From the IMG/VR virus record IMGVR_UViG_3300006914_000018, positions 1 to 33,334 of that record: a stretch of DNA of 33,334 nt. The stretch is one strand, 5' to 3'. The translations under genes and the position numbers were made by a program. This DNA comes from a virus. The notes beneath the pieces are model-generated. The model was not told the DNA's origin, did no database searches, and was given only the letters and a program-made list of their open reading frames with translations. Below are positions 5,656-6,651 of the stretch, piece after piece (position 1 is the stretch's first letter; each line of letters starts with the position of its first letter).

Positions 5656-5889
5656 ATGCCTAAACGCTCAAGCAAGCCACCCCAGGACATGAATGAGGCC
5701 GCCGCGCAGGCGGTGGCTCGCCTGACGGGCACCGAGCCCCCCCCACGCGAGAAGAATCCCGCAGCGGTCGCGCTAGGCCGTCTGGGTGGCAAGAAGGGGG
5801 GCTTGGCCCGCGCCGCTAAGCTCAGCGCACAGCGGAAGCGGGAGATTGCCAAGAAGGCGGCCCAGGCCCGATGGAAAGGTAAGGGCTAG
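5656..5889 (+). CDS. small basic KGG/GGxxGG-type host-like protein
   Basis: 77 residues from ATG 5656. The C-terminal half matches a widespread small bacterial protein pattern: KNPAAVALGRLGGKKGG, then ARAAKLSAQRKREIAKKAAQ and a final ARW. The N-terminal part (PKRSSKPPQDMNEAAAQAVA) also looks like that family. Its biochemical role is not established; the basic helical end suggests nucleic-acid binding. It has its own promoter and no ribosome site, and it is followed by a hairpin, so it seems to be an independent unit within the phage genome. Confidence 0.65.
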   Translation: MPKRSSKPPQDMNEAAAQAVARLTGTEPPPREKNPAAVALGRLGGKKGGLARAAKLSAQRKREIAKKAAQARWKGKG

Positions 5890-5910
5890 TGTGATACAGC
5901 ACACCAGCTT

Positions 5911-5953
5911 ACCTATGGACCCCCCTTGCGGTTTGGGGGGACTACCGATAGGT
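5911..5953 (+). terminator. hairpin after small host-like gene, probable terminator
   Basis: ACCTAT (5911-5916) can pair with ATAGGT at the right end, and CCCCCC (5920-5925) with GGGGGG (5935-5940), enclosing a TTGCGGTTT loop. No T-run follows, so this is not a standard Rho-independent terminator on the + strand, but its place 21 bases after a stop codon fits a transcript-ending or transcript-protecting structure. Confidence 0.45.
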
Positions 5954-5997: not shown

Positions 5998-6097
5998 CGG
6001 ACAGGATGGGATTCGAACCCACGAGGGGCCTAGCGTTCACTAGGTGATCCCTACCGGATTGACAGTCCGGCGCGTTCAGCCACTCTGCCACCTGTCC
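5998..6097 (-). tRNA. type II tRNA with GUC anticodon, unusually long variable arm
   Basis: Read on the minus strand, GGACAGG (6097-6091) pairs perfectly with CCTGTCC (6005-5999), followed by G73. Then come T8 G9, a D arm GCAGAGTGGCTGAACGC, an anticodon arm CCGGA-CTGTCAA-TCCGG with U33, anticodon GUC and A37, a 31-nt variable region containing CCTAG/CTAGG, and a T arm with loop TTCGAAT. CCA is not encoded. GUC reads Asp codons, but normal tRNA-Asp has a five-nt variable loop; the D arm and long variable arm look like tRNA-Ser or tRNA-Leu. One D-stem pair (A12-C23) is mismatched. The amino acid it carries cannot be assigned with confidence. Confidence 0.8.
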
Positions 6098-6106
6098 TGC
6101 TTCATG

Positions 6107-6134
6107 CCGGCCCGGGTTAGCTGTCCCGGGCCGG
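6107..6134. repeat. perfect 10-bp GC-only inverted repeat beside the tRNA
   Basis: CCGGCCCGGG (6107-6116), an 8-base loop, and CCCGGGCCGG (6125-6134) form a perfect, very stable hairpin nine bases upstream of the tRNA 5' end on the minus strand. There is no T-run on either side. It could be a processing signal for the tRNA precursor, a transcript barrier for + strand reading, or a protein-binding site. Confidence 0.6.
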
Positions 6135-6182: not shown

Positions 6183-6226
6183 CTAAAATGAGGGAGGCCA
6201 GCCGGTTGCACCCGACTGGCCCTCCC
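6183..6226 (-). terminator. Rho-independent-like terminator on the minus strand
   Basis: GGGAGG (6192-6197) pairs with CCTCCC (6221-6226), CCAG (6198-6201) with CTGG (6216-6219), and the stem continues to a TTGCAC loop. Read on the minus strand it is followed by TCATTTTAGG. On the + strand the following bases are AGGCCC, so the terminator works, if at all, for minus-strand transcripts. Confidence 0.5.
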
Positions 6227-6366: not shown

Positions 6367-6651
6367 GTGCCTGAGCCCATCAGCCTCGATGAGCGCCGTC
6401 GCCGTGCGGAGCAATCCGCTCTCGCCAAACTGTCCCGCGAAGATCGCACCCGTTACGAAACGCTCCACGTCGCTGCGACCTTAGCTCGTCAGGAAGCCCA
6501 CCGGCAACTCGACCAACAGCTCGACCTCATCATGCCGGAACTCCTCGCCGCGATTGACGCGGGACGGACGTTCACCGTCTTAGTGATTGACCCAGAAGCC
6601 CTGCCGGTGATTCCCGACCCTGCTCCGAAAATCGTGGTCGTCGATGGCTAA
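6367..6651 (+). CDS. small helical hypothetical protein at head of packaging operon
   Basis: 94 residues from GTG 6367. The first 60 residues are strongly helical and charged (LDERRRRAEQSALAKLSRED, then RQEAHRQLDQQLDLIMPELL), ending in a short beta/proline segment (FTVLVIDPEALPVIPDP). No convincing Shine-Dalgarno site was seen; a TACACT element at 6351-6356 could be a -10 for a nearly leaderless transcript. The gene overlaps the next by eight bases and starts the terminase operon, so a packaging accessory role is possible. Confidence 0.5.
   Translation: MPEPISLDERRRRAEQSALAKLSREDRTRYETLHVAATLARQEAHRQLDQQLDLIMPELLAAIDAGRTFTVLVIDPEALPVIPDPAPKIVVVDG

Follow-up and report, generated by a model that had tools for sequence, protein, structure and literature searches.

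A phage tRNA gene that combines a serine-type body with the GUC anticodon of aspartate

The 33,334 bases analysed here (the window, a whole IMG/VR virus record) encode a tRNA whose fold is intact and in which a body scored as Ser, not Asp, is joined to the anticodon GUC. The known kind to which it belongs is that of the SerRS-type tRNAs with non-Ser anticodons, and it is a real variant of these in a phage. Bacteria contain hybrids of a similar sort; the unusual features here are the ordinary stems, the very long arm and the location of the gene in a phage. According to the best explanation, which we rate at a probability of roughly 0.55, the tRNA would be charged with serine by the host and would read Asp codons, in the manner of an allo-tRNA or dual-identity tRNA.

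The tRNA gene and its setting

The record contains the tailed-phage genes for an ERF recombinase, a VRR-NUC protein, the large terminase, the portal and the major head protein, together with a pectate-lyase-like protein and three HNH endonucleases. The terminase is about 26% identical to those of LUZ24-type Pseudomonas phages, a distant likeness. A cmscan search of the whole window finds a single tRNA, which matches the Rfam tRNA family over its full length (1-71) with 54.0 bits and an E value of 4.2e-9 (Table 1). ARAGORN calls no tRNA in the window, probably because of the long arm.

The gene lies alone in an intergenic gap, between an ORF that ends at 5889 and another that starts at 6367, and is antisense to both. 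A scan of the region found no sigma-70-like promoter on the tRNA strand. Terminator-like hairpins are present on both sides, but such consensus matches are weak evidence, with about one site expected by chance in the region; the upstream hairpin possibly insulates the tRNA. Two long GC-rich hairpins without clear poly-T tails, at 6107-6134 and 5911-5953, also flank the gene, with the sequences CCGGCCCGGG...CCCGGGCCGG and ACCTAT..CCCCCC...GGGGGG..ATAGGT. An attachment-site tRNA was considered and rejected, since none of the 22 scanned proteins is an integrase and no second copy of the tRNA 3' end is found in the window, with the proviso that the record may be incomplete.

Table 1. Features of the tRNA gene and its surroundings (window coordinates)
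Feature	Position	Strand	Evidence
tRNA gene, type II, GUC, serine-type body, G73	5998..6097	-	cmscan RF00005, 54 bits; isotype models
Anticodon GUC (positions 34-36)	6061..6063	-	sequence and cmscan alignment
Loop CUGUCAA around the anticodon	6059-6065	-	sequence and cmscan alignment
31-nt variable region, two-part hairpin AGGG/CCCU and CCUAGU/GCUAGG	6023..6053	-	sequence; constrained fold
Terminator-like hairpin downstream of the tRNA	5885..5908	-	consensus scan only
Terminator-like hairpin upstream of the tRNA	6195..6222	-	consensus scan only

From 5' to 3', the tRNA reads GGACAGG TG GCAG AGTGGCTGA ACGC G CCGGA CTGTCAA TCCGG (31 nt) GTGGG TTCGAAT CCCAT CCTGTCC G. All seven pairs of the acceptor stem (GGACAGG/CCUGUCC) are formed, the discriminator is G73, and CCA is not encoded (TTC follows). 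In the D arm (GCAG...ACGC), G10-C25 and C11-G24 are paired, A12 and C23 are mismatched, and G13/A22 is as in many type II tRNAs. The anticodon stem CCGGA/UCCGG has five of five pairs and may be extended by G26-U44, and the T arm GUGGG-UUCGAAU-CCCAU also has five of five, including a G49-U65 wobble. The preliminary description of a type II tRNA with a perfect acceptor stem and GUC in a CTGTCAA loop is thus confirmed by cmscan and the sequence. Its variable region of 31 nt was also correct in length, but the CCTAG/CTAGG stem proposed for it is only part of the structure. The region folds as AGGG-AUCA-CCUAGU-GAAC-GCUAGG-C-CCCU, and in the constrained fold the arm consists of a basal stem, an internal loop and an outer stem of six pairs. 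It is longer than in all reference Ser tRNAs examined (13-24 nt).

The lowest-energy unconstrained fold is not a cloverleaf. It arises because CUGUC of the anticodon loop repeats part of the 3' acceptor strand and is thus complementary to the 5' acceptor strand or to the D arm (regions 6059-6065 and 6091-6097). The forced cloverleaf has -40.4 kcal/mol, compared with -42.6 kcal/mol for the unconstrained fold, and this gap of 2.2 kcal/mol is within the range of most reference Ser tRNAs and ordinary for type II.

Identity of the tRNA body

The body was compared with a reference set of about 400 tRNAs from fetched phage, plasmid and bacterial loci. Home-made isotype covariance models (not the tRNAscan-SE set), built from 25 Ser, 15 Tyr and 10 Asp tRNAs, give 71.9 bits for Ser, 45.1 for Tyr and 28.2 for Asp. 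A position-specific classifier that ignores the anticodon, the D loop and the variable arm scores the tRNA at +12.2 for Ser, +6.6 for Tyr and -5.6 for Asp; its leave-one-out accuracy is moderate overall (237/359), good for Ser (44/51) and fair for Asp (9/13). Over the core positions, the closest reference tRNAs are Ser tRNAs, with 48 of 58 positions identical. Models, classifier and determinant counts agree on a serine-type body with an Asp anticodon and bear out this part of the preliminary description. An ordinary type I tRNA-Asp, with its short variable loop and Asp isotype score, is ruled out by the isotype models and the core positions, and a Tyr body with a single anticodon change by G73 and the 27-bit gap to Ser. 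In the reference set, G73 occurs in 42 of 53 Ser tRNAs, whereas A73 is found in all 18 Tyr and in 61 of 62 Leu tRNAs.

Bacterial SerRS recognizes the variable arm and G73 and does not read the anticodon (PMC9976931, PMC7609411). By the bacterial determinant table of PMC9976931, the tRNA has six of the seven listed Ser determinants. Its Ser features comprise the type II body, G73, G2-C71, C11-G24, G30-C40 and the long arm; the anticodon is GUC and not one of Ser (NGA or GCU/ACU). R4-Y69 is replaced by C4-G69. In view of this replacement, and of an arm that exceeds those of the reference Ser tRNAs, recognition by SerRS is not assured.

Counterparts and known hybrid tRNAs

Seven phage contigs have related terminases, four of them at 76-78% identity, but no such tRNA; their only tRNA is a Lys tRNA in a relative at 51% identity. 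Pattern scans of 2.9 million viral contigs yielded one clear counterpart, L119:5988-6086, in the 104.8-kb phage contig IMGVR_UViG_3300025924_000018. Like the window tRNA, it is of type II, has GUC in a CUGUCAA loop, G73 and 7/5 stems, and is overlooked by ARAGORN; its variable arm has 30 nt and a long stem, and an ordinary type I tRNA-Asp(GUC) is encoded in the same cluster. It has seven of seven Ser determinants and scores 64.8 bits for Ser, 47.6 for Tyr and 23.9 for Asp with the home-made models. Unlike these models, the position classifier places Tyr (12.8) above Ser (8.4); the exclusion of a Tyr body is less clear for this tRNA. Of the 58 core positions, 42 are the same in both tRNAs. Each matches ordinary Ser tRNAs at least as well, and the two therefore probably arose independently. 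With this second case, a one-time accident does not explain GUC on a body of this type. In 84,980 bacterial and archaeal species genomes, a strict pattern with set T-loop and D-loop spellings found just ordinary Ser-UGA tRNAs and chance matches. A further candidate, L023:1080-1163, was first flagged as a type II GUC tRNA and then rejected, as its score does not reach the Rfam gathering threshold and its acceptor strands do not pair cleanly.

To make a serine tRNA, a long variable region is not enough. This is clear from L098:6049-6136, which has GUC and a 20-nt variable region on a true Asp body with C38; the Asp model gives it 42.5 bits, and its Asp score in the classifier is +12.5. Its source (L098, L132 and L155 are all the phage contig IMGVR_UViG_3300033067_002106) encodes 33 tRNAs, among them Cys, Val, Asp, His, Ile, Asn and Met tRNAs with variable regions of 15-20 nt, most with the proper discriminator for the anticodon, as in a general lengthening of the region. 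Other unusual tRNAs were also met. The Arthrobacter plasmid NZ_CP113344.1 encodes a tRNA (L160:595-683) with an Ile GAU anticodon and a strongly Ser-scoring body (75.7 bits); its first acceptor pair is broken, it is located between an AbiJ-NTD4 gene and a recombinase gene, and it is perhaps a remnant or recombination-site copy. L023:1316-1399 (minus strand), in a phage tRNA cluster, is a type II tRNA with the Cys anticodon GCA and U73, for which the Ser (66.5) and Tyr (67.0) scores are about equal. L075:1724-1813 looks like a type II tRNA; it has the Glu anticodon UUC, G73 and many features of Ser tRNAs, but also C33 in place of U33 and an imperfect T stem.

Among known systems, the allo-tRNAs (Mukai et al. 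2017) are the most relevant. In PMC7609411, they are described as SerRS-type tRNAs with a long variable arm and non-Ser anticodons, with occurrences in Clostridia, Proteobacteria, Acidobacteria and soil metagenomes. Within the 8/4 class, GUC ranks among the three most frequent anticodons, and it appears again in a second, garbled list of that passage. Serine insertion in E. coli is known for allo-tRNAs with such anticodons, and insertion of Ser (or Ala) in vivo is among the criteria for the group. The window tRNA resembles them in its SerRS identity elements, long arm and non-Ser anticodon. In contrast, allo-tRNAs are defined in the same text by 8/4 or 9/3 acceptor and T stems, whereas the window and L119 tRNAs have canonical 7/5 stems and arms of 30-31 nt, and the window gene resides in a phage. 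An eighth acceptor pair is impossible, since positions 8 and 65 are both U, and the 7/5 stems rule out an allo-tRNA in the strict sense. The novelty first attributed to the tRNA is weakened by these published cases, but the phage 7/5 form stays unusual. In an open-licence library of papers, we found no description of a phage 7/5 serine-type GUC tRNA, which does not prove its absence.

Two further systems are described in PMC11415595. The tRNA-ProX of Streptomyces and Kitasatospora also joins the body for one amino acid to the anticodon for another, but has a Pro body, Ala, Asn or Thr anticodons and A33, whereas the window tRNA has a Ser body, GUC and an ordinary U33. The Candida CUG tRNA-Ser(CAG) is likewise a serine tRNA on the codon of another amino acid, with SerRS ignoring the anticodon; it belongs to a reassigned code in a cellular genome, and no reassignment is seen in the window phage. 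The tRNA-Ser of Thermus phage phiLo, an ordinary phage tRNA-Ser, is 72% identical over its full length and shares the context GUAGGG...CCCUCGUGGG around the arm, but its anticodon is GGA and its variable region has 24 nt. In phage tRNAs, the isotype score often disagrees with the anticodon, as it does for 14 of 26 in phage Sf14 (PMC12482277).

Charging and the decoding of aspartate codons

Serine charging appears to be the likeliest mechanism. The anticodon of a serine-type tRNA would have become GUC, and the host SerRS would charge the product by reading the long arm, the discriminator and acceptor and D-arm positions, not the anticodon. As SerRS ignores the anticodon, such a body would be expected to carry serine to Asp codons. 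The charged tRNA would compete with the host Asp-tRNA(GUC) at GAC and GAU and place serine at a low fraction of these codons. In this it would resemble the allo-tRNAs of bacteria or other natural tRNAs of dual identity. The absence of the gene from close relatives and the lack of an Asp-to-Ser signature in the proteins count against this explanation, as do the C4-G69 pair, the exceptional arm and the Asp determinants that the tRNA has kept.

The latter point to the strongest alternative, a functional tRNA-Asp or doubly charged tRNA, which we regard as unlikely. AspRS would read G34, U35, C36, G73 and G10, tolerating A38 and the long arm, and the tRNA would supplement Asp decoding, perhaps replacing cleaved host tRNA-Asp. 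The three anticodon bases are the strongest Asp determinants in bacteria (PMC9976931), and as five of the six listed determinants are kept, charging by AspRS is conceivable. C38 is lost, but A38 is also found in 5 of 13 reference Asp tRNAs, mostly from phages. A discriminator that suits the anticodon is also retained in several phage tRNAs whose variable regions are long, such as His C73, Cys U73 and Asp G73 in L098/L132. Against this, the Asp model score is 44 bits below that for Ser and lower than that of the true Asp tRNA of L098, which also differs sharply in the classifier, and the L119 tRNA already has a normal tRNA-Asp alongside.

Next in plausibility, and also improbable, is a non-translational element: a decaying relic, a decoy for a host protein that binds or cuts tRNA, or a transcript with another role. 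The gene is solitary, antisense to its neighbours and missing from relatives, it lacks a sigma-70-like promoter, and the RNA has a D-stem mismatch and a slightly more stable alternative fold. According to PMC7609411, one group of natural allo-tRNAs was inactive in E. coli translation. Yet the stems of the acceptor, anticodon and T arms are complete, the variable arm forms well, the cloverleaf is at most 2.2 kcal/mol from the minimum, and an independent counterpart exists. That faulty assembly or sequencing has altered an ordinary tRNA-Ser or tRNA-Tyr is very improbable even for a metagenome-derived contig, as at least two changes separate any Ser anticodon from GUC, the single change that would suffice from Tyr GUA is opposed by G73 and the Ser model, and the same loop was found independently in L119.

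The phage itself does not appear to be recoded. GAC and GAU account for 53 per thousand of its codons. When window proteins are aligned with those of relatives that lack the tRNA, 79% of the Asp residues are conserved and the exchanges with Ser are symmetric (6 positions with Asp in the window and Ser in the relative, against 8 of the reverse kind). GAC and GAU therefore mean Asp in this phage, complete Asp-to-Ser recoding is ruled out, and deliberate recoding of the phage is not supported. Serine insertion, if any, must be partial, late or directed elsewhere. Since the phage proteins still depend on GAC and GAU as Asp codons, the gene would be an accessory one and not a change of the genetic code.

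It is improbable that some phages use dedicated serine-charged, Asp-reading tRNAs with very long arms to mistranslate Asp codons on purpose in infection. If they did, the effect might be, for example, damage to host or defence proteins, or diversified virion proteins. If the window tRNA is charged with serine, as we favour, a phage-supplied tRNA would break the Asp rule of the code in infection, and natural mistranslating tRNAs would extend from bacteria and yeast to viruses. It would also offer a small portable system for testing the purpose of such errors. With two independent examples that have matching features, the question may be tested with two short genes.
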